Shown here in pieces: positions 27,454 through 38,038 of a DNA stretch of 62,832 bases. The translations under genes and the position numbers were made by a program. The stretch is from Pseudomonadota bacterium. Lineage in GTDB: Bacteria > Pseudomonadota > Alphaproteobacteria > SP197. The notes under the pieces were generated by a model. The model searched no databases, was not told the DNA's origin, and saw nothing but the letters and a program-made list of their open reading frames with translations. The DNA is taken from positions 1-62,832 of the forward strand of contig JBCCIS010000030.1 of the NCBI GenBank assembly GCA_039028155.1. Reading direction: 5' to 3'. The stretch's first letter is position 1. The number at the start of each line of letters is the position of its first letter.

Positions 27454-29523
27454 TCAGAAATCCGCCGATAGCGCGGTCAACTCGCGGCGGAAGGGAATGT
27501 CGCCCATGGGTTCCGCGCCGAGTTCACGGGCATAGCGGTGCCCTTCGTAGACCGCCGCCGCGATTGTCGCCGGACCATAGCAGTCACCGATACGGCGCAC
27601 CGACGTAATCCCGGCATCGGCCAAGCCTTCTTGATTGGCCACCAGCTCCCAATAGACCTGATCGATCGGCTCTCGCGACGTTACCATCACGACGGCGGAC
27701 GCCGGCACCGAGCGTTCACGCTCGGTATAGCCGCACGCCAGCGTGACATCGCGATTGCCAATGACGCGCAGGGTGTGGCTGAGGATGATGTCGACCCCGA
27801 TCTCCATCAAGCGCGCCTGGATACGCGTCTGTTCCAGAGTCTGATCGGTCCAGGCCGAGACCTTTGCCTCAGGCGTCACGAGGACAACGTCGGCACCATC
27901 GGCACGAAGCTTCTCGGCGATCAGGCCGCCCATGTAGTAATGGTCGTCGTCGTAGACGAGGACAGGTCCCTCCGGCGTGGTACCGGCCATGATGTCGTCG
28001 GGCGTGAAAACGTTGGCGCCGTCGGTGCCGGGAATCGGAAACTGGTGGGCGCGCCCAAAGCCGTCGCGACGCCACGTCGCGCCGGTCGCCAAGGCCACGC
28101 TTGATGCGCCGAACTCCCTGATCTGCGCCGCGTCCAACGCGCTTCCCGGATACATCATGACATTGGGCATTTGCTGGAGCTGATAGGTCCGGTAGTCGCG
28201 AACTCGGGCCCACGCGCTCAATCCCGGCAATTTGCTTTCTCGGGTCACACGGCCGCCCGGCTCATCCGCGGCATCCGCCAGCGTCACGTCATAGCCGCGC
28301 TGGCCCAACGCGCGCGCGGCCTCAAGACCGGCCGGCCCGGCGCCGACGATCAACACCGTATCGTCGGTCGACTTCGGCTCGATGCGCTCGGGATGCCAAC
28401 CCTTTCGCCATTCCTCGCCCTTCGTCGGGTTCTGGGTGCAGCGCATGGGCGCGGTCGACATGTCCCAGCTGACGCAGACATTGCACCCGATGCACTCGCG
28501 AATGTCCTCGATGCGCCCTTCTTCGATCTTCTTGGGCAGGAAGGGATCGGCGATCGACGGGCGCGCCGCGCCGATCATGTCCATGATGCCTTTCTTGATG
28601 ACGGAGACCATGCGGTCGGCAGATGTGTAACGTCCGACGCCGACGACCGGTTTGGTCGTCACCTTCTTAACGAACTCGATGAACGGTTCCTGGAACCCTT
28701 CCTCGGAAAAACGGCTGGTCTGCGAATCGTTGTGCCACTCGGCAACGTTGACGTCCCACAGGTCGGGCAATTCGGCCAGCATCTCGATGATCTCGCGGCC
28801 CTCCTTGTCCCATTCCATACCGTCGGCGCCACGCAGTTCATCAACCGCGAAACGTGCGACGACACCCATGGTGTCGCCGACCGCATCCTTTGCTTCCTCG
28901 GTGATCTCACGGAACAGGCGCACGCGGTTCTCCAGGCTGCCACCGTATTCATCGGTGCGGTGGTTGTAGCGACGCAGCATGAACTGGCCGGCGAGCGACA
29001 GATTGTGTGCGGCGTAGCAGCAGACGATGTCGAAGCCCGCCTTTTTTGAACGCTTCACGGCGTCCAGGTGCCAGCGGCGGTAATCGCGTATGTCCTGCTT
29101 GTCCATGGCGCGCGCCTGCACCGGGAACGTGCCGACGACCGGCATGTGACTCGGGAAGATCGGCACCTCGCGGCTATAGGCATTGGTGACGAACTTGCCG
29201 TTGTGGGTCAGTTCGATCAGGGCCAGCGAGTCATGCTCATGGACCGCATCGCACATGCGCGCGAGGTAGGGGATGTCCTCGTCCGACCACAGGCGGCCCT
29301 CGGTTGCCGGGGTGATGTCCGCCGTCGGGTGAATATCGATCTGCTCGGTCGCAATGACCGCCCAACCGCCTTCGGCCTTGACGCCGCGCATGCGCGCCAT
29401 GCTGGAGGGAAAGGTACGGCCCATGCCATTGCAATGGGGCACCTGATAGAACCGGTTGCGTGCGGTGACAGGCCCGATCTGGACCGGCTCGAAAAGAATG
29501 TCGTAGCGGGGGTCACGTGTCAT
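27454..29523 (-). CDS. trimethylamine/histamine dehydrogenase-type iron-sulfur flavoprotein, paralogue 1
   Basis: A 689-residue enzyme with the three-part architecture of trimethylamine dehydrogenase (TMADH): FMN-binding TIM barrel (1-~345), a [4Fe-4S] site, then ADP-binding Rossmann domains. Cys31 in V-P-H-C matches the Cys that carries covalent 6-S-cysteinyl-FMN in TMADH. The cluster is C-I-G-C-N-V-C followed 11 residues later by C. The Rossmann motif is G-A-G-P-A-G. The TMADH aromatic bowl (Tyr60, Trp264, Trp355) is changed: the sites read Gln61 (T-E-Q), Trp (A-E-W-H) and Asp (C-V-S-W-D). This is the Gln/Trp/Asp pattern I recall for histamine dehydrogenase. Oxidative deamination or demethylation of a secondary or primary amine is likely. 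Starts two bases after paralogue 2. Confidence 0.85.
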   Translation of the reverse strand: MTRDPRYDILFEPVQIGPVTARNRFYQVPHCNGMGRTFPSSMARMRGVKAEGGWAVIATEQIDIHPTADITPATEGRLWSDEDIPYLARMCDAVHEHDSLALIELTHNGKFVTNAYSREVPIFPSHMPVVGTFPVQARAMDKQDIRDYRRWHLDAVKRSKKAGFDIVCCYAAHNLSLAGQFMLRRYNHRTDEYGGSLENRVRLFREITEEAKDAVGDTMGVVARFAVDELRGADGMEWDKEGREIIEMLAELPDLWDVNVAEWHNDSQTSRFSEEGFQEPFIEFVKKVTTKPVVGVGRYTSADRMVSVIKKGIMDMIGAARPSIADPFLPKKIEEGRIEDIRECIGCNVCVSWDMSTAPMRCTQNPTKGEEWRKGWHPERIEPKSTDDTVLIVGAGPAGLEAARALGQRGYDVTLADAADEPGGRVTRESKLPGLSAWARVRDYRTYQLQQMPNVMMYPGSALDAAQIREFGASSVALATGATWRRDGFGRAHQFPIPGTDGANVFTPDDIMAGTTPEGPVLVYDDDHYYMGGLIAEKLRADGADVVLVTPEAKVSAWTDQTLEQTRIQARLMEIGVDIILSHTLRVIGNRDVTLACGYTERERSVPASAVVMVTSREPIDQVYWELVANQEGLADAGITSVRRIGDCYGPATIAAAVYEGHRYARELGAEPMGDIPFRRELTALSADF

Positions 29524-29525
29524 GG

Positions 29526-31607
29526 TCAGTTCACCGGCCAGTCGTTGCTGAGTTCCACCACCTCGCGCCGGAACGGCACCTCGTCGATCAAAGGCGGCGC
29601 ATCCATCTCGCGGGCGTACTTGTGGCCACTATAGACGGCAGTCGCAATCAGGCCAGGTGCCAGGCAGTCGCCGATGCGCGTTACCGAGCGAATGCCGGCG
29701 GAGTCGAGGGCATCGGAGTCGGCCATCAGGTCGTGATAAAGACTATCTTCCGGCCGACGCATGGTTACCAGGATAGCGCTGCCACACGATACGTTCTGAC
29801 GGCGACCAGTATAGACACAGGCCAACTCCACGCCGCCATTTGCGATGGCCGCGACGCTTTGCGCTGTGTAGACGGCGACATTCAGTTCCAAGAGGCGGGC
29901 CTGGATGCGCCCCTGTTCCATGGTATTGTGGGTCCAGGTCGCGACATCGGCGGCCGGTGTCACATAGGCGACCTCGTGACCGTCGGCGCGAAGCTTCTCC
30001 GCCAGGACGCTCGCCATGAAGTAGTACTCGTCATCAAAAATCACGACAGGGCCCGTCATGGCAGCGCCGGCGATAACATCGTCTGGCGAAAAGACGTGAT
30101 TGCCGTCTGAGCCGGTTATGGCGCGTCGATGGGTTTCGCCGATACCGTCACGTGTCCACGACGACCCGGTCGCCAGGACCACATGGTCGAAACCGAACTC
30201 ACGCACGTGGTCGGCGTTCAGGCGGCTGTCCAGAAAGACCTCAACGTTCGTCATGTTCTGGATCTGGCCAATGCGATAGTCGCGCACACGTGCCCACGAC
30301 GACAGTCCCGGAAGCTGACTGACCCTGTTCAGGTGGCCGCCCAACTCCGTTTCGGCCTCGGCCAACGACACCGCGTAGCCGCGCTGGCCCAGCGCGCGGG
30401 CGCATTCAAGCCCGGCCGGGCCGGCGCCGACAATCAGGACGCTGTCGTCGCTCTCCTGCGGCGCGATGTGCTCGGGATGCCAACCGCGACGCCACTCTTC
30501 ACCCTTGGTCGGGTTCTGGGTGCAGCGCATGGGCATGAACATGTAGTCGCCGGAGACGCAGATGTTGCAGCCGATGCACTCGCGGATGTCTTCGATACGG
30601 CCTTCCTCGATCTTCTTCGGCAGGAACGGATCGGCAATCGACGGGCGCGCCGCGCCGATCATGTCCAGCACGCCTTTGTTTACCAGACCGACCATGCGGT
30701 CGGCGCTGGTATAGCGGCCGACACCGACCACCGGCTTCGACGTCTTGCTCTTGACGAAGCCGATGAATTCCTCCTGGAACCCCTCCTCGGCGAACCGCGC
30801 GGTCTGGGAGTCGTTGTCCCATTCGCTGATGTTGACGTCCCAGAGGTCGGGCAATTCGGCAAGCAGCTCGACGACGGCCGTTCCATCGTCCTTCGCCACG
30901 ATGCCCTGATCGCCAGCCAATTCATCGACGGCGAAACGCACCGCGACCGCCATGGTATCGCCGACCGCCTCCTTGGTATCCTCGATCACCTCGCGCATCA
31001 GCCGCGTGCGGTTCTCGATGCTGCCGCCGTACTCGTCGGTGCGGAAGTTGTAGCGGCGCGAAATGAAATGCTGCATCAAGCACAGGTTATGGCCCGCGTA
31101 GACATAGACGATATCGAAACCAGCGTCGCGGGCACGCAGCGCCGCTTGCTTGTGCCAGCGCCGGAAGTTCTTGATGTCGGTCTTGTCCATGGCGCGCGCT
31201 TGGCCCGGCTCGCTGCCGAAGACCGGCATGGCGGACGGCGCCATCACAATCTCGCGCGACAGCCGGTTGTGGCCGGCCGGCCCGCCATAGACCAGTTCAC
31301 AGCCTGCAAGCGCGCCATGGCGGTGCACCGCCTCGGTCATGCGTGCCATGATCGGAATGTCCTGCTCGCTCCACAACCGCGCCTCGATCGCCGGCGTGAC
31401 ATCGCCGGTGGCGTGAAAGTCGCACTCCTCGGTGCAGATGACCGCCCAGCCGCCTTCGGCCTTGATGCCGCGCATCGCCGCCATGGCGCTTGGGTACTGC
31501 ACGCCCATGCCGTTGCAGTGGGGAACTTGGTAGAAGCGGTTGCGTGCCTGGACCGGTCCGATCTGAACAGGCTCGAACAACACGTCGTAGCGCGGGTCTC
31601 GACTCAT
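29526..31607 (-). CDS. trimethylamine/histamine dehydrogenase-type iron-sulfur flavoprotein, paralogue 2
   Basis: A 693-residue paralogue of the next gene with the same domain order. It keeps V-P-H-C (probable covalent FMN), C-I-G-C-N-I-C plus a fourth Cys in P-M-R-C for the [4Fe-4S] cluster, and G-A-G-P-A-G for ADP. The aromatic-bowl sites read Glu (T-E-E), Trp (S-E-W-D) and Asp (C-V-S-G-D), so one neutral Gln of paralogue 1 is an acidic residue here. An extra carboxylate suggests a substrate with a second positive charge or none of the trimethylamine type. ATG at 31607. It stands 83 bases after the phosphatase gene, so an internal promoter is possible. Electron acceptor is probably an ETF encoded elsewhere. 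Confidence 0.85.
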   Translation of the reverse strand: MSRDPRYDVLFEPVQIGPVQARNRFYQVPHCNGMGVQYPSAMAAMRGIKAEGGWAVICTEECDFHATGDVTPAIEARLWSEQDIPIMARMTEAVHRHGALAGCELVYGGPAGHNRLSREIVMAPSAMPVFGSEPGQARAMDKTDIKNFRRWHKQAALRARDAGFDIVYVYAGHNLCLMQHFISRRYNFRTDEYGGSIENRTRLMREVIEDTKEAVGDTMAVAVRFAVDELAGDQGIVAKDDGTAVVELLAELPDLWDVNISEWDNDSQTARFAEEGFQEEFIGFVKSKTSKPVVGVGRYTSADRMVGLVNKGVLDMIGAARPSIADPFLPKKIEEGRIEDIRECIGCNICVSGDYMFMPMRCTQNPTKGEEWRRGWHPEHIAPQESDDSVLIVGAGPAGLECARALGQRGYAVSLAEAETELGGHLNRVSQLPGLSSWARVRDYRIGQIQNMTNVEVFLDSRLNADHVREFGFDHVVLATGSSWTRDGIGETHRRAITGSDGNHVFSPDDVIAGAAMTGPVVIFDDEYYFMASVLAEKLRADGHEVAYVTPAADVATWTHNTMEQGRIQARLLELNVAVYTAQSVAAIANGGVELACVYTGRRQNVSCGSAILVTMRRPEDSLYHDLMADSDALDSAGIRSVTRIGDCLAPGLIATAVYSGHKYAREMDAPPLIDEVPFRREVVELSNDWPVN

Positions 31608-31690: not shown

Positions 31691-33133
31691 TCAAGGGCCA
31701 AGCCGACAGACCCCGTCCCAGCCCACCGGCAGCGAGCAGACGGCGATGACGCGACCTGTGGCGGTTCCGTCCGGCCTGAAGCTGTGCACTTCGCCCTTCA
31801 TGGTGCCATCGGCCTTCAGCGTCATATCGAGATAGCCAAAGTGGTCCGGACTGATGTTGGCCGACAGTGACAGCACGGAGGCCGGCTCGCCGTCGACATC
31901 GGTCTCGTAAGGACTGTTCAGAAGATTGATGTCCAGTGTACCACCGGAATTGCCGATAATAAGCTGCGGCGGACGGTCATCATCGAACGTGACCGCCTGA
32001 AACTCGTGTACATGGCCACTCAGCACCAGCGTGATGGACGGCGGCAACGATGACATCAGAGACTGTTTGAGTGCGCGCTGCAGCGCCGCGTTAAGCTGCA
32101 CAACCTCCGACTCGCCTTCATAGTGAACCGCTGTCCAAATGGGATGGTGCGTGATCAGCCAGACCGGCTTCTCCGAGCCACGGGCGAGCGCGGCGACCTG
32201 GTCGAATTGTTGGGCGTAGACGCGCGCCTGATACGCGAAGGACGCCTCGTCCTGGAACGCCGTTTCGTCGCAGGCATTGGCTGAATCCATGATGACGACG
32301 CGGATCGGCCCTAGGTCGAGCGCATAGGCGCCGGTCTGCACGGTCAGGGCGTCACAAACCGGCAGGGCACGATAGGGATCGAGCAACACCGAGCGGGGAT
32401 CAAGGAGATAAAACCATCCCCGCCCCGCACGGCTGCAAAGCTCATGATTACCGCGCGCGATCACCCAAGGCGCAGTCGCCATCAGCGCCGATGCGGGCTC
32501 AAAAACATCCAGCCACCATGTCTGCCATGTATCGCCGGCCGTCGTGTTGACCCACGGCCGGCCAGGTCGAGGCATGCAGCTGTCGTAGGTCGTCTGGCCG
32601 TCGACTTCCTTCTGCGGCGTACCGCGATAGTTCCAGTCGCCAACATGGATGACCAGATCGGGATTGCCCGCAGCCGCGTGCGCGGCGATGCCGGCAAACG
32701 GCCACTCCGAAGCGCAGTCCTGTGTGGCGCCCCCATCGCAACCACTGTCACCGATAACGACCAAACGTTCGGGCTCAGACGTGTAGCTGGGCAGTACCAC
32801 CCCGTCGATCGCGGCGCGGACCCCGAGTGGCATGACCGCCTCGCACACGGTTACCGGAAAAGCCTCCTCATCGGGATTGTCCCGCGTTGTCGAGTTGAGC
32901 GTTCCATCCACGTCACCATTCTGGTCAAGACGCTGGAAAGCGGGACACGCCAGACCAGTGCCCTCCAAGATCACCCTGGCGAGGGTGGTTGTTTCTTCGT
33001 TGACGGGATCATAGGTGACAATGACGTAGCGCGCCGCGATGTCACCATGATCGGCCCAAGCGGTCGGACCGGAAATCAAAGAAGCCAAGGCAATGACTAC
33101 GGCGCCGAGCCGCGTGATCGGACTAGTCTTCAA
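31691..33133 (-). CDS. secreted purple-acid-phosphatase-like metallophosphoesterase
   Basis: A 480-residue exported calcineurin-type phosphoesterase. Signal peptide in about residues 1-27 (K-T-S-P-I-T-R-L then hydrophobic core, T-A-W-A-D). The five motifs of purple acid phosphatases appear in order: G-D-S-G, G-D-W-N-Y with the Fe-binding Tyr, G-N-H-E, T-H-H and G-H-V-H. Dinuclear metal chemistry is therefore likely. Several Cys pairs suit a periplasmic disulphide protein. The TTG at 33133 is chosen because AGGAGAG lies just upstream and a signal peptide starts at once; a longer frame would add a charged tail. It overlaps the end of the selenoprotein gene by 11 bases, showing translational coupling. 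Confidence 0.85.
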   Translation of the reverse strand: MKTSPITRLGAVVIALASLISGPTAWADHGDIAARYVIVTYDPVNEETTTLARVILEGTGLACPAFQRLDQNGDVDGTLNSTTRDNPDEEAFPVTVCEAVMPLGVRAAIDGVVLPSYTSEPERLVVIGDSGCDGGATQDCASEWPFAGIAAHAAAGNPDLVIHVGDWNYRGTPQKEVDGQTTYDSCMPRPGRPWVNTTAGDTWQTWWLDVFEPASALMATAPWVIARGNHELCSRAGRGWFYLLDPRSVLLDPYRALPVCDALTVQTGAYALDLGPIRVVIMDSANACDETAFQDEASFAYQARVYAQQFDQVAALARGSEKPVWLITHHPIWTAVHYEGESEVVQLNAALQRALKQSLMSSLPPSITLVLSGHVHEFQAVTFDDDRPPQLIIGNSGGTLDINLLNSPYETDVDGEPASVLSLSANISPDHFGYLDMTLKADGTMKGEVHSFRPDGTATGRVIAVCSLPVGWDGVCRLGP

Positions 33134-33830
33134 AGGCTCTCCTGGCCGCCTCCTCGCCGAACAGATCGGCGATCGCTTGGGGTCCCGCGCGCTTGCCGAT
33201 CTCGATAAACCGCTCGTTCTCTTCGGCACGCCAAATCATGCGCTCCGAATAGGCCGGCATCAGTTGCTCCTTGCGCCGGCGCATGTAACCGCCGAGGCTT
33301 TCCTCAAGCGCCGCCTCGACATCATCCGGTCGCGTCCAGGCGGCCTTGTACAAAATCAGGCCGCCACGGCCGACGATCCACGTCATGTTCGGCAACTGGC
33401 CGTAGCCGTTGTGGCAGGCCCCGTCGAGCGTATCGATCAACACCGGACGCTGGATGTTCTGTTCCCCAACGAAGGCACGCGCGTGCTCGCGCTTCATATC
33501 CATCGAGTCATGGGGTGGCAGGAATTCACCCGGATGGGCCTCGCGCACATAGATGAAGACCGATCGCACGGACCGATCGGCGTACCGGCCGGCGATGTCT
33601 TCCATCGCCGCGGCCGCCATGGTGCAGTAGGCTCAGGAGTAGCTGCCGAACTCCATGATGACGGCGTCGCGCTTCCACAGCTCCTTTAAATGCACGGTAT
33701 CGCCGGTCGCCAGATCGTCGAGCGCGAAGTCCGGCGCGACGGTCCCGGCGTTCGGCGCCTCGTAGAAACGCGAGAACTTCTCCATGTCCTCGTCTGTCGG
33801 CGCAAAGACCGAATAGTTGTACCCGTCCAT
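33123..33830 (-). CDS. deiodinase-like/redoxin selenoprotein with in-frame UGA (Sec66)
   Basis: One 235-residue gene read through an in-frame TGA at 33633-33635. The frame before it (65 residues) and after it (166 residues) are the same. The join reads F-G-S-Y-S-U-A-Y-C. Iodothyronine deiodinases have F-G-S-C-T-U-P-P-F there, and a conserved E-A-H about 27 residues later; here the equivalent is I-Y-V-R-E-A-H-P. The fold is thioredoxin-like (V-A-P-D-F-A-L-D-D-L, then W-I-V-G-R-G-G-L-I-L-Y-K near residue 150). Sec66 and Cys69 form a U-x-x-C redox pair. ATG at 33830 has GAGGAGG upstream. A SECIS-like stem-loop lies at 33587-33615. The alternative is a nonsense mutation or sequencing error, which is less likely given the exact position. 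Substrate unknown; peroxide, thiol or reductive dehalogenation are options. Confidence 0.83.
33587..33615 (-). promoter_or_regulatory. SECIS-like stem-loop downstream of the selenocysteine codon
   Basis: In the mRNA an outer stem GGCC/GGCC and an inner stem GGCGAU/AUCGCC, separated by a two-base GC bulge on the 5' side, enclose the apical loop GGAAGAC. The loop begins 29 bases after the UGA, inside the range usual for bacterial SECIS elements, and starts with G as expected. It lacks the GU found in the E. coli fdhF loop. It lies within the coding sequence, as bacterial SECIS do. Confidence 0.62.
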
Positions 33831-33888
33831 GGCTCCTCCTCAGTCCGATAGAAGGATATCAACACGGCGGGCCGCCACGGTCCAGGCA

Positions 33889-35040
33889 TCACAGCGTGGC
33901 GGCGTTGCCCCAGATTGCCGTCACCTGGCTCGACAGATGGCCGCCATTGCCGTGACTGACGGCCGTCTCGGTGCCACCGACTTGGCGCTCGCCCGCCTCG
34001 CCACGCAGTTGCTGTATGGCTTCGATGACGGTGAAGATGCCGTACATGCCGGGATGCACGCATGACAGGCCACCGCCATTGGTGTTGACCGGCAGACTGC
34101 CGCCCGGCGCGATGGCACCGCTGGCGGCGAAGGGACCGCCTTCCCCCTTGGCGCAAAAACCGAGATCCTCCAGGAACAGAACCGTGTTGATGGTGAAGGC
34201 GTCATAAAGTTCGGCGACATCGATCTCGGCCGGTGACAAGCCTGCCATGGCGAATGCCCGGACGCCGCTTTCCGTTGCCGCCGTCACCGTCAGATCGGGC
34301 ATCTGCGAGATCTGGCGGTGCCAGTGCGCCTGACCGACACCCAACAGATAAACCGGCGGTTTCGGCTGATCGCCGGCGTGGTCGGCACGCGTCAGAACGA
34401 TCGCGCCGGCGCCGTCGGTTACCAGACAGCAATCGCGCACGCTGAGGGGATCGCAAACCAAGCGGCTGGCGAGGACATCATCGACCGTCAGGGGATCGCG
34501 CATCATGGCGTCCGAGTTGAGCGCCGCCCATTGACGCGCGGCGACCGCGACCTCGGCCAGTTGCTCACGTGTCGTGCCGAACTCATACATGTGACGCGAC
34601 GCCGCAAGCGCATAGGAACTGATCGGATAGCGCGGGCCATAAGGCGTCTCGTAAATCAACGGTTCGCCGGTCGACGGCGATACCAGGCGACCGGCAGCGC
34701 TGCGCTGGTTGCTGCCGTAGCAGATAAGCGCGACATCGCACAAACCGGCATCGAGCGCCAAGGCGGCCCACAACAGGTGCGCGACCGGCGACGACCCGCC
34801 AATCTGCGTGCCGTCGCTGACCTTGGGCCTGATGCCCAGGTATTCGCCGACATTCAGTGGCGCAAAAATGTTCTGCAGATTGGCGGTGAACAATCCGTCG
34901 ACATCGCCAAGCGTCAGGCCGGCATCGTCCAGCGCATCCTTGACCGCCATCGCGGTCAGATCGAGATGGCTGAAGCCCGGCGCCTCACCCAGGCCGGCCA
35001 GGCCGACACCAACCGCCGCGGTCTTGCCGCGCAAGCTCAT
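33889..35040 (-). CDS. thiolase-like protein without the nucleophilic cysteine (SCP-x/Ltp2-type)
   Basis: A 383-residue thiolase-fold protein. It begins A-A-V-G-V-G and has T-A-N-L-Q-N near residue 55. The normal active-site loop Cys-x-S is replaced by G-G-S-S-P-V, so no acyl-Cys can form. The C-terminal part keeps N-T-N-G-G-G, C-V-H-P-G-M-Y-G and S-H-G-N-G-G. Thiolase-like proteins lacking the Cys and encoded beside a DUF35 protein include Ltp2-type aldolases of steroid side-chain breakdown, which cleave by retro-aldol reaction. It overlaps the DUF35 gene by four bases, so the pair probably forms one complex. The role in a steroid-like or other branched acyl-CoA pathway is inference. Confidence 0.82.
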   Translation of the reverse strand: MSLRGKTAAVGVGLAGLGEAPGFSHLDLTAMAVKDALDDAGLTLGDVDGLFTANLQNIFAPLNVGEYLGIRPKVSDGTQIGGSSPVAHLLWAALALDAGLCDVALICYGSNQRSAAGRLVSPSTGEPLIYETPYGPRYPISSYALAASRHMYEFGTTREQLAEVAVAARQWAALNSDAMMRDPLTVDDVLASRLVCDPLSVRDCCLVTDGAGAIVLTRADHAGDQPKPPVYLLGVGQAHWHRQISQMPDLTVTAATESGVRAFAMAGLSPAEIDVAELYDAFTINTVLFLEDLGFCAKGEGGPFAASGAIAPGGSLPVNTNGGGLSCVHPGMYGIFTVIEAIQQLRGEAGERQVGGTETAVSHGNGGHLSSQVTAIWGNAATL

Positions 35041-35399
35041 GCCAGATCGAAGACGACGAAGGGTTCGCCGTCCTGCTTCGTGATCCTAGCCGTGACCGAC
35101 ATGCCGATCTCGACGTCCTCGGGCGCCAGCCCTTCGACGCGACTGGTCAGCCGGACGCCTTCTTCCAGGTCGACCATGCAGAGGTTGTAGGGCGGACCCT
35201 GTTCCGGTCGGCGGCGGATGACCGTTGTGGCATAGACCGTGCCCCTGCCGGACACCTGCCGCCACGTCAGGTCATCGCTGCCGCAATAGGGGCACAGGAT
35301 GCGCGGGAAGAAGACATACCGTCCGCACCCGCCGCATTGCTGGATGTGCAGGGCTCCGGCTTCCAGGTAGGCGGCGTACTGTGCGTCCGGCCCGGTCAT
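35037..35399 (-). CDS. DUF35/OB-fold zinc-ribbon protein, partner of the thiolase-like protein
   Basis: A 120-residue protein with a rubredoxin-like zinc ribbon (C-G-G-C at ~22 and C-P-Y-C at ~36) followed by an OB-fold acyl-CoA-associated domain (S-G-R-G-T-V-Y-A-T-T-V and P-Y-N-L-C-M-V-D-L-E-E-G-V). Such proteins bind thiolase-fold enzymes and are required for activity of Ltp2-type aldolases. ATG at 35399 overlaps the MaoC gene stop by four bases; the longer open frame upstream lies inside that gene. Stop overlaps the thiolase-like gene start. Strict coupling on both sides supports a stable complex. Confidence 0.88.
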   Translation of the reverse strand: MTGPDAQYAAYLEAGALHIQQCGGCGRYVFFPRILCPYCGSDDLTWRQVSGRGTVYATTVIRRRPEQGPPYNLCMVDLEEGVRLTSRVEGLAPEDVEIGMSVTARITKQDGEPFVVFDLA

Positions 35400-36262
35400 G
35401 ACGCCAGTTCCACCAAGCCGTTGTTCAAGACGACGGCATCGCGGTCGTCGACGCGCGCGCGCAGCGACACGGTCGTGCCGTCGACCCACAGCTCTGTGCG
35501 GATCGTCTCGCCGGGGAACACCGGCGCGGAAAACCGCACGTCGAACCGTTTGAGGCGCGTGGGGTCATAGTCGCACAGGGTCTTCAAGACCGCATGCCCG
35601 GCGATACCGAACGTGCAGAGCCCATGCAGGATCGGACGGTCGAAACCGGCCGCCTTGGCAACGTCGGGATCGGCATGGAGCGGGTTATCGTCACCATTGA
35701 GCCGGTAGAGCAAGGCCTGCTGCGGCAAAGTCGGGAGATCGCAGACGTGATCGGGATCGCGTTCGGGCATCGGATGGGGCTGGCGCACCGGACCGGACGG
35801 CCCGCCAAAGCCACCGTCGCCGCGCGCGAACGTCGTGCGCCGGATGGTCGCGACCGGCTGGTTCGTCGAGGCGTCGATGATGTCGCGCAGCATATAAAGC
35901 AGCGCACCACGGCCCTCGCCTTTGTCAATAATCTCCTCGACCCGGCTGCGCGTCAGGAACGTGCCTTCGGCGGGGATCGCGCGATGTAGCGTCAGGCTCT
36001 CCTCGCCGTGGACGACCTTCTTCCAATCGACACCGGTCTTGGGATCACGCAGCCAGAACCCCGGCGGTGTCAGAACCACCGCCATGGTCGGCAAGGCCTT
36101 CATCTCCTTTTCGTAAACGAAGCGGAGTTCGTTCTCGTCGACCGGATCGTGACCGACACCGACGCCCAGCGCGTAGAGCGCTGTCTGTTGCCAGGTCCAG
36201 GTCCGCGTTTCCTCGGGAAACGACCAAGCCTTCAGGGATTCGTAGTCAATGGCCACCGGCAT
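35396..36262 (-). CDS. MaoC family (R)-specific enoyl-CoA hydratase, intact active site
   Basis: A 288-residue double-hotdog protein of the hydratase-2 type. The N-terminal hotdog has lost the motif. The C-terminal hotdog holds Y-R-L-N-G-D-D-N-P-L-H-A-D-P, with the catalytic Asp and His and the Asn-Pro of the signature, followed by A-G-F-D-R-P-I-L-H-G-L. It should add water to a 2-enoyl-CoA to give the (R)-3-hydroxyacyl-CoA. It overlaps the neighbouring MaoC gene by 17 bases. The partner SDR at 37121 could then oxidise the hydroxyl group, or the thiolase-like/DUF35 pair could cleave the product by retro-aldol. Confidence 0.87.
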   Translation of the reverse strand: MPVAIDYESLKAWSFPEETRTWTWQQTALYALGVGVGHDPVDENELRFVYEKEMKALPTMAVVLTPPGFWLRDPKTGVDWKKVVHGEESLTLHRAIPAEGTFLTRSRVEEIIDKGEGRGALLYMLRDIIDASTNQPVATIRRTTFARGDGGFGGPSGPVRQPHPMPERDPDHVCDLPTLPQQALLYRLNGDDNPLHADPDVAKAAGFDRPILHGLCTFGIAGHAVLKTLCDYDPTRLKRFDVRFSAPVFPGETIRTELWVDGTTVSLRARVDDRDAVVLNNGLVELAS

Positions 36263-37124
36263 GTCCTTTCAAGTCGGCGCGACCATTGGCCAACACGACG
36301 ATGTCGCGGCCAGCCGCGCGGGTTTCAAACCAAACGGCCGAACCGTCGCGCCAGATCAGGGTGCGCAATCTGTCACCGGGATAGACCGGGGCGCTGAAAC
36401 GGCCATGGAAACGCTGAACGCGCTCGGGTTCATGGTCGCAGCAGCAGGCAACGACCGCGTGACAGGCGATGCCATAGGTCGCCAGACCGTGCAGGATAGG
36501 CCCATCGAACCCGGCATCGCGGGCGAACTTCGGCTCTACGTGCAGCGCGTAGTGATCGCCCGACAGGCGGTAGATCAATGCCGCCTGCGCCGCAACCGGC
36601 TGTTCGTGGATGGCATCCGGTTCGCGATCGGGCATCGCCGCGCGTTCCGGCACCGGTGGCGGTGGGCCGCCGAAGCCGCCAGCACCGATCAACACATCGG
36701 TCTGGCGCAACGTCGCAAGCGCCTGCCCCGAATCGGCATCGACCATCTCCTCTTCGATGACCAGAATGGCGTGGCTTCCCGAACCCCTGTCATAGAGGCC
36801 AACGACGCGGCTCTGTCCCTTGATTGTGCCTTCGGCGGGGATTGGCGCGTGCAGGGTGATCGTCTCGTCGCCGTGCACATTCGGCGCGGCCCCTAGACCT
36901 AGCGCGGGGTCGCTCAGCCAATGGTTGGAATCGCCGATGACCGTGGCGAAAGTCGGCAGCACCCGCGGTCCCCAGTCCTGGTAAACGAACGGCAGGACGT
37001 TGCGGTCGACGGGATCATGCCCGAGACCCAGGCCGAGGTGATAAAGCACGCTATCGTCAGCGGCATGACCCCTTTCGTACGGCGCGATCTCGAAGGATGC
37101 GACCTTGCCGGGATCGACGGTCAC
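36246..37124 (-). CDS. MaoC family dehydratase paralogue with altered hydratase motif
   Basis: A 292-residue double-hotdog protein, paralogue of the next gene. Its hydratase motif reads Y-R-L-S-G-D-H-Y-A-L-H-V-E-P: Asp and His are kept but Asn-Pro is Tyr-Ala, which may open the pocket or change the substrate. The GTG at 37124 overlaps the stop of the SDR gene (GTGA) and is chosen; the longer frame is a shadow of that gene. The C-terminal A-G-F-D-G-P-I-L-H-G-L-A-T-Y-G is family standard. Two MaoC subunits in one operon may form a heteromer, as known for steroid side-chain hydratases. Confidence 0.84.
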   Translation of the reverse strand: MTVDPGKVASFEIAPYERGHAADDSVLYHLGLGLGHDPVDRNVLPFVYQDWGPRVLPTFATVIGDSNHWLSDPALGLGAAPNVHGDETITLHAPIPAEGTIKGQSRVVGLYDRGSGSHAILVIEEEMVDADSGQALATLRQTDVLIGAGGFGGPPPPVPERAAMPDREPDAIHEQPVAAQAALIYRLSGDHYALHVEPKFARDAGFDGPILHGLATYGIACHAVVACCCDHEPERVQRFHGRFSAPVYPGDRLRTLIWRDGSAVWFETRAAGRDIVVLANGRADLKGHAGGH

Positions 37125-38038
37125 ACGGGATCCCACGAGAAGACGTCGCCGGAAACGTCGAGATCGTAGAGATCGGATTTGAAGGCCGGCAGCATCTGAT
37201 CGGCAAGCGCCTGAGGCGTCCAGCCGCCGTCGCGATGCAGCGAGCGCAGCGGCCGGGGCTGGCTGATCAGGAACACCTCGTCGCCACGGACGCAAAGGAT
37301 CTGGCCTGACACGTCGGACGCCGCGTCGGACGCCAAAAACACCGCCATCGGCGCGATCTTGGCCGGCGTCAGCGATTTCAGCTTATCGACCCGCGCCTTC
37401 TGGTCCTCGGTTTCCGTCGGGATCGACCCGATCATGCGCGACCAGGCGAACGGCGCGATGCAGTTCGATCGCACGCCGAAGCGCGCCATATCGAGCGCGA
37501 TGCCGCGCGACAGGCCGACGATACCCATCTTGGCCGCCGCGTAGTTGGCCTGACCGATGTTACCGATCAATCCGGATGTGGAGGTGAAGTGAACGAAGGC
37601 GCCAGAGCCCTGCTCGCGGAAATGCGCGGCGGCGGCGCGGCTGGTGTTGAAGCTGCCACGCAGGTGGACATCGATCACCGCTTCGAAATCGGCATGGCTC
37701 ATCTTGTGAAAGATGGCGTCGCGCAGAATACCGGCGTTGTTGACCACCGCGTCGATGCGGCCGAAGGCATCCAGCGCCGCCGCGATCATGCGTTCGGCGC
37801 CCTTGGCGTCGGCGACGCTATCGGCGTTCAGCACCGCCCGACCACCGGCGTCCTTGATCGCAGCGACGACCTCGGCGGCTGGCCCCTCATTGGCGCCGGC
37901 GCCATCGAGCGACGCGCCGAGGTCATTGACCACGACAGCAGCACCTTCTTGCGCCATCAACAACGCGATCTCGCGCCCGATACCGCGGCCGGCACCGGTC
38001 ACCAGGGCGACCTTGCCCGCCATCATGTCTCCGGCCAT
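37121..38038 (-). CDS. SDR family dehydrogenase, MFE-2-type (3R-hydroxyacyl-CoA dehydrogenase-like)
   Basis: A 305-residue short-chain dehydrogenase. NAD-binding motif T-G-A-G-R-G-I-G near residue 15, V-V-N-D-L-G-A-S-L-D-G typical of the multifunctional enzyme type 2 branch, N-N-A-G-I, catalytic Ser in T-S-T-S-G and Tyr/Lys in N-Y-A-A-A-K. The C-terminal ~45 residues extend beyond a plain SDR (L-A-D-Q-M-L-P-A-F-K). In MFE-2 such an SDR is fused to a MaoC hydratase; here the two are separate genes in tight order, consistent with the same chemistry: oxidation of a 3-hydroxyacyl-CoA. ATG at 38038, 13 bases after the MBL gene. Confidence 0.87.
   Translation of the reverse strand: MAGDMMAGKVALVTGAGRGIGREIALLMAQEGAAVVVNDLGASLDGAGANEGPAAEVVAAIKDAGGRAVLNADSVADAKGAERMIAAALDAFGRIDAVVNNAGILRDAIFHKMSHADFEAVIDVHLRGSFNTSRAAAAHFREQGSGAFVHFTSTSGLIGNIGQANYAAAKMGIVGLSRGIALDMARFGVRSNCIAPFAWSRMIGSIPTETEDQKARVDKLKSLTPAKIAPMAVFLASDAASDVSGQILCVRGDEVFLISQPRPLRSLHRDGGWTPQALADQMLPAFKSDLYDLDVSGDVFSWDPV

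Follow-up and report, generated by a model that had tools for sequence, protein, structure and literature searches.

The locus analyzed here raises the question of whether a reading frame interrupted by a single TGA encodes a selenoprotein and, if so, what such a protein may do. It lies on the minus strand of a 62,832-nucleotide stretch (the window) of contig JBCCIS010000030.1, from an alphaproteobacterium of the SP197 lineage, and had been singled out from the sequence by a first-pass annotation as a bacterial deiodinase-like selenoprotein gene.

The interrupted gene and its relatives

Read from 33830 to 33123 on the minus strand, a strand that the first-pass annotation had left unnamed, the gene comprises 65 codons from its ATG, the TGA, a further 169 codons and a TAG, with the TGA as the sole interruption (Table 1). 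The first-pass annotation had described open stretches of 65 and 166 residues parted by one TGA; the first stretch and the TGA stood, but the second is 169 residues long, or 165 if counted from the ATG within it. The strong GAGGAGG that it had placed before the ATG is present, and a purine-rich stretch precedes the start in all five other full-length orthologues. Its placement of the TGA at the deiodinase Sec position (F-G-S-x-[ST]-U) agrees with the active site, F-G-S-Y-S-U-A-Y-C, while the E-A-H motif expected about 27 residues after Sec exists but starts 31 residues after it. With these corrections, the feature claimed is confirmed as real. The length of the frame alone is weak evidence because chance long ORFs are frequent in the DNA of the window; a 198-aa ORF on the opposite strand overlaps the selenoprotein gene.

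Table 1. Features of the selenoprotein locus and its surroundings (window coordinates)
Feature	Position	Strand	Remarks
Deiodinase-like selenoprotein gene, 235 residues, complete	33123..33830	-	ATG 33828-33830, TAG 33123-33125; orthologues
In-frame TGA, codon 66, read as Sec	33633..33635	-	TGA in 8/8 subfamily genomes; TGA or Cys in 29/29 aligned relatives
Shine-Dalgarno GAGGAGG	33835..33841	-	4 nt upstream of ATG
Cys69 codon, second residue of U-x-x-C	33624..33626	-	invariant in 6/6 full-length subfamily members, own included
E97-A98-H99, counterpart of deiodinase loop-D E-A-H	33534..33542	-	invariant 29/29; aligned to Dio3 E-A-H
bSECIS-like stem-loop, 7-8 bp stem, GAAGA loop 33598-33602	33590..33610	-	UGA-to-loop distance 30 nt
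Codons 71-84, lowest synonymous divergence in gene	33579..33620	-	low divergence continues to about codon 90
SCP2-type thiolase / acetyl-CoA acetyltransferase	33889..35040	-	ends 58 nt upstream of selenoprotein gene
DUF35 (ChsH2-like OB fold), two MaoC/MFE-2 hydratases, SDR	35037..38038	-	upstream, same strand
Calcineurin-like phosphoesterase	31691..33103	-	downstream; start codon approximate
Two OYE/FMN-NAD(P)H oxidoreductases	27454..31607	-	downstream; near full-length, sub-cut-off BaiCD / mycofactocin OYE matches

The same codon is TGA in all eight genomes found to carry the window's subfamily, its own included, across three genera and down to 52% identity. Six of these genomes (the window's own, G000, with G001, G009, G012, G013 and G015) belong to one family and two (G207 and G299) to another. 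Identity to the window protein ranges from 52 to 90% across the five other full-length copies, and for six pairs dN/dS was 0.06–0.26 after the TGA and 0.05–0.29 before it, that is, purifying selection on both sides. Because the TGA is held at one codon in every carrier and the sequence after it is so constrained, the interrupted gene goes beyond chance, and the recurrence of the TGA in seven further genomes makes a base-call error very unlikely. Two copies (G009:C9:50986-51686 and G015:C13:172987-173683) keep the TGA and have frames broken further 3′, where conserved protein sequence continues in other frames; these breaks may reflect decay or assembly error.

Matches to the gene were found in 8 of 143 related genomes and in 20 of 385 genomes of the class, the latter comprising 12 with an in-frame TGA, six without a stop and two weak partial matches (G162 and G368). 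A search of 398 genomes of the phylum with the subfamily alignment also matched 20, most of them partially and none, besides the window's own gene, with an in-frame stop; the three genome sets overlap. The window's subclade looks rare in the sampled genomes. No relatives were found among viral contigs and phage records, the gene matched none of the PADLOC defence models, and a plasmid search yielded one distant match (31.9% identity over 60% of the query) in Mycolicibacterium vanbaalenii, annotated as deiodinase-like.

Homologues were expected to carry Sec or Cys at residue 66, and this was observed throughout an alignment of 29 relatives, 19 of which have TGA and 10 Cys at the active-site position. 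Left out of this alignment are the frame-broken copies of G009 and G015, the G127 gene, and the hits in G162 and G368, which are weak, partial and not of the UGA type. A count of 3 TGA had been obtained for G200, but a multi-Sec active site was rejected there, as one TGA lies at the active site and another, near the end of the frame, was taken as the stop.

The SECIS-like element and the Sec-decoding machinery

The rules given for bacterial SECIS elements in PMC13188914 are a loop of 3–9 nt, a stem of 4–16 bp, a G in the first two loop positions, a distance of 16–37 nt from the UGA and an MFE of −7.5 or lower. Judged by eye, the stem-loops of the window gene and five others agree with these rules as folded, and those of G207 and G299 agree with the loop-G rule only with their innermost GG/CC pairs open. 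Over the stem-loop, the eight subfamily genomes align with no gaps, and the folding energies of the 54 nt counted from the UGA lie between −13.7 and −23.8 kcal/mol.

Synonymous constraint is better evidence for a SECIS here than either folding energy or covariation. In a scan of 189 segments of 13 codons, which drew on five pairs of only four genomes, synonymous changes are scarcest in the two segments beginning at codons 72 and 71 (2 of 46 and 2 of 44 comparisons), and the hairpin, spanning codons 74–81, lies inside this low-synonymous stretch. The segment immediately after the UGA ranks 34th, and the low stretch outruns the hairpin (Table 1); for codons 71–84, a region picked after the scan, single-pair Fisher tests gave p values from 0.003 to 0.18 over six pairs. 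A 91-nt stretch has an unremarkable folding energy (z −0.70), and covariation in the hairpin is weak, with one of eight pairs changing on both sides, 57 of 500 shuffles reaching the score and a slide of +3 scoring equally.

Analysis of the window's own genome revealed the genes needed to check the selenoprotein reading (selA, selB, selC and selD) in one cluster. A single stretch of contig C6 carries selA (E 3.8e-160), selB, tRNA-Sec with anticodon TCA (UCA in the RNA) and selD (E 2.5e-86), selB being recognized by its wing domain (E 7.7e-8) within a 663-aa frame. The SelD match (L029:7773-9998, on G000:C6) sits within a long frame of 741 aa from its first start codon and 757 aa open, so that SelD seems to be fused to another domain. 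The sel cluster of this genome is on a different contig from the window gene, and in G207 (C147) and G299 (C12) the gene of the window subtype lies about 11–12 kb from selA.

Of the 33 genomes examined for the machinery, 17 have a UGA-type gene (either subtype), and every one of these has full-length SelA and a tRNA-Sec match above the gathering score. Six genomes have only Cys-type genes, of which G265 and G306 lack both SelA and tRNA-Sec and four have both. In G004 and G005 there is no tRNA-Sec, SelA-superfamily matches are weak only, and no deiodinase-like gene was found. The association of gene and machinery is one-way, because seven further members of the family (G002, G003, G006, G007, G008, G010 and G011) have SelA and tRNA-Sec yet no match to the gene. 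Two of the models require care: SelB-wing (PF09106), a short model with 57 positions, matched no more than 11 of these 17 genomes with a UGA-type gene, and the tRNA-Sec model at E ≤ 1e-9 also matches the control Thermus composti, where the SelA model does not.

Three other readings of the TGA were weighed against these data. The TGA could be a plain nonsense mutation dividing a redoxin gene that is dead or was misread, and the frame breaks of G009 and G015 after the TGA do allow that some copies are decaying or mis-assembled; the retention of the TGA at one codon by eight genomes from three genera, at identities as low as 52%, and the low post-TGA dN/dS in all six pairs nevertheless render a pseudogene or sequencing error highly improbable. 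Termination at the TGA followed by restart at the ATG of codon 71, yielding two separate short proteins, would exploit an ATG that lies five codons past the TGA. That ATG has no Shine-Dalgarno-like sequence upstream, the split would break a thioredoxin-type active site at its catalytic residue, and the stem-loop is positioned where a SECIS is expected, leaving this reading with very little probability as well. A code change in which UGA means Trp, so that residue 66 would not be Sec, appears next to negligible: it is consistent with the open frame, but the 10 stop-free aligned relatives have Cys and never Trp at the site, the gene itself uses TGG codons for Trp, and tRNA-Sec(UCA) and the sel genes are present. 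In sum, because the TGA is conserved, the gene is under purifying selection, the stem-loop falls in a low-synonymous stretch and the genome has the sel genes, the window gene is very probably a selenoprotein gene.

Family, predicted fold and subtypes

Comparison of the joined protein with deiodinase and redoxin families, proposed by the first-pass annotation as a check, bore out the family assignment. Similarity to PF00837 (T4_deiodinase) is recognizable but below the cut-off (E 1.7e-4, 21.4 bits versus 27), the match to PF00578 (AhpC/TSA) is above it (E 3.6e-7, 30.6 bits versus 26), and all 29 aligned relatives match both families at E ≤ 0.01. The NCBIfam model NF038285 (deiodinase_rel) matches partially and below its cut-off (E 2.4e-18, 66.7 versus 250 bits, profile positions 173–325 of 347), and none of the curated NCBIfam models attains its cut-off on the window protein. 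Because its score is under the T4_deiodinase cut-off, the word deiodinase is not to be taken as an activity. Ten positions are invariant in all 29 relatives: G29, S63, Sec/Cys66, Y94, E97, A98, H99, D133, P147 and G157.

The nearest solved relative by sequence is Dio3 (E 0.00076). The AlphaFold model has a pLDDT of 83.3 and a pTM of 0.85, with residues 182–202 at low confidence. In the list of structural matches, which carries no information on families missing from it, the best are Dio2 (Z 19.7, rmsd 2.4, 159 residues aligned) and Dio3 (Z 18.5, rmsd 3.2, 161 aligned), followed by thiol-disulfide oxidoreductases at Z 16.5 and less; ordered by Foldseek E-value, ResA comes first and Dio3 tenth. 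ResA and DsbE (1su9, 3gl3) share with the window protein the thioredoxin fold and the two-residue spacing of the redox pair, which in them is Cys-x-x-Cys, but they match the model at Z 16.4 or less, compared with 19.7 for Dio2, and they are not known to have an E-A-H relay.

The window protein resembles mouse Dio2 and Dio3 (9h48, 4tr3) in predicted fold, Sec position, S-x-[ST]-U, Y-x-x-E-A-H and a counterpart of the second relay His. Aligned to Dio3, residues S63, S65, Y94, E97, H99 and H107 fall on deiodinase proton-relay positions, the last relay His of Dio3 being presumably number 219, in agreement with the sequence count; H107 is Leu in G013. In Dio2, the relay consists of Ser127, Thr129, Tyr157, Glu160, His162 and His182 (PMC11592359). 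In contrast to both mouse enzymes, the window protein has U-A-Y-C for U-P-P and a loop-D that is 9 residues shorter in the alignment to Dio3, and it has about 50 residues, partly of low confidence, beyond the core aligned with them. In G207 and G299 the site reads U-P-Y-C, likewise not U-P-P. Given its sub-cut-off PF00837 score, U-x-x-C in place of U-P-P and shortened loop-D, the window protein is not an iodothyronine deiodinase proper.

The family matches of the 29 relatives and the predicted fold place the window protein, as predicted from its sequence, in the bacterial deiodinase-like class. Sec-containing bacterial members of this class with a bacterial SECIS, together with Cys homologues, were described with a suggested redox role (Zhang et al. 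2005, PMC1088965), deiodinase-like selenoproteins are present in the GOS set (PMC2398784), and later sources tabulate the class with PF00837 and the motif UxxC, while describing the functions of such predicted selenoproteins as largely uncharacterized (PMC9312934, PMC13188914). The first-pass description, deiodinase-like with U-x-x-C, is therefore correct for an already described class, but the U-x-x-C pair is not distinctive, as that motif is the one tabulated. The published proteins (PMC1088965, PMC9312934, PMC13188914) share with the window gene a Sec-UGA with a bacterial SECIS, PF00837 similarity, UxxC and a bacterial host, a likeness drawn from described features.

A tree of the aligned relatives, rooted at its midpoint only and with some long branches, separates 14 proteins (13 with U-P-P, plus the C-P-I protein of G306) from the remaining 15 with a support of 100/99. 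The window falls in a six-row Sec clade reading U-A-Y-C or U-P-Y-C (support 93/97), beside which stand nine Cys proteins reading C-[SP]-[ML]-[YF]. Since these nine lack a Cys at position 69, C69 goes with the Sec clade. Alphaproteobacterial genes of the U-P-P type (13 alignment rows and G127) are like the window gene in their NF038285/PF00837 similarity and in-frame TGA but differ in having the T-U-P-P-F site of the vertebrate enzymes and in lying across the main split of the tree.

In four of the nine genomes with the U-P-P type, this gene has tRNA-Sec, selB and selA no more than about 5 kb away (G312:C1:3246515-3250558, G389:C22:37779-41821, G223:C15:113821-117863 and G127:C7:381614-386129), and the remaining five have their selA and tRNA-Sec matches on contigs different from that of the gene; the adjacency may point to a function connected with selenium metabolism. 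One of these genomes, G389, has four separate UGA-type deiodinase-like genes (contigs C15, C18 and C22), and its copy at C15:222150 has an extra C-terminal part that is probably the source of a single Alkyl_sulf_C match.

Gene neighborhood and proposed function

Each of the six carriers in the window's family has a set of thiolase, DUF35 and MaoC genes close to the selenoprotein gene. The thiolase directly adjoins it in four (G000, G001, G013 and G015), and an opposite-strand gene stands between the two in G012 and G009. This neighborhood was not found in the 17–18 kb examined around G207 and G299. Where conserved, it suggests a link to acyl-CoA catabolism. On the downstream side of the window gene, the tandem OYE-type flavoenzymes (689 and 693 aa) score far under the cut-offs of the BaiCD and mycofactocin-system OYE models.

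We regard as probable, and as the best explanation of the data as a whole, a selenoprotein of the bacterial deiodinase-like class in which UGA66 is decoded through SelB and Sec66 and Cys69 form a redox pair. Sec-tRNA-Sec(UCA) would be made by SelA and SelD and carried by SelB, which the stem-loop 30 nt downstream would recruit, allowing UGA66 to be decoded as Sec. The predicted thioredoxin/peroxiredoxin-type fold would put the selenolate of Sec66 where a helix begins; it would most likely attack a substrate that is oxidized or electrophilic, yielding a selenenyl intermediate, possibly aided by the deiodinase-like proton relay (S63, S65, Y94, E97, H99 and H107). Cys69 would then most likely resolve this intermediate by forming an Se–S bond, to be reduced by a cellular thiol system. 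In our view, a role as thiol-dependent reductase or peroxidase, perhaps tied to the neighboring acyl-CoA catabolic genes, is more likely than the removal of iodine.

The principal alternative in terms of chemistry is that the protein acts as an iodothyronine-type deiodinase or reductively dehalogenates halogenated aromatics, in which case Sec66 would take the halogen as X+ and a thiol would regenerate the selenolate. Dio2 and Dio3 are the closest solved folds to the predicted model, and the relay residues and E-A-H are retained. Marine settings are rich in organohalogens, and a same-genus relative probably comes from the skeleton of the coral Porites lutea, to judge from its isolate name, PL23b, which matches a sample in PMC9868349. 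Nevertheless, the shorter loop-D, the U-x-x-C for U-P-P, the score under the T4_deiodinase cut-off and the fact that no dehalogenation gene was recognized among the nine neighbors scanned make this alternative unlikely. A bolder proposal, to which we give slightly less credence still, combines the two lines: a U-x-x-C subclade with the relay and a trimmed loop-D, beside a CoA-dependent β-oxidation-like cluster, may represent a self-resolving seleno-dehalogenase or seleno-reductase acting on a halogenated or peroxidized catabolic substrate. If true, this would be the first defined role for a bacterial homologue of the deiodinases.

The deiodinase-like class has been known since 2005; new here are a rare subclade and the location of the window gene close to a thiolase/MaoC/DUF35/SDR cluster, on neither of which our literature search retrieved a paper. 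The selenoprotein gene is easily mis-annotated, since an ordinary gene caller is expected to report it as two pieces and its product scores below the cut-off of every curated NCBIfam model. The conserved neighborhood and the Sec- and Cys-containing relatives provide a concrete starting point for a substrate search, and they bear on the origin of the vertebrate thyroid-hormone enzymes.
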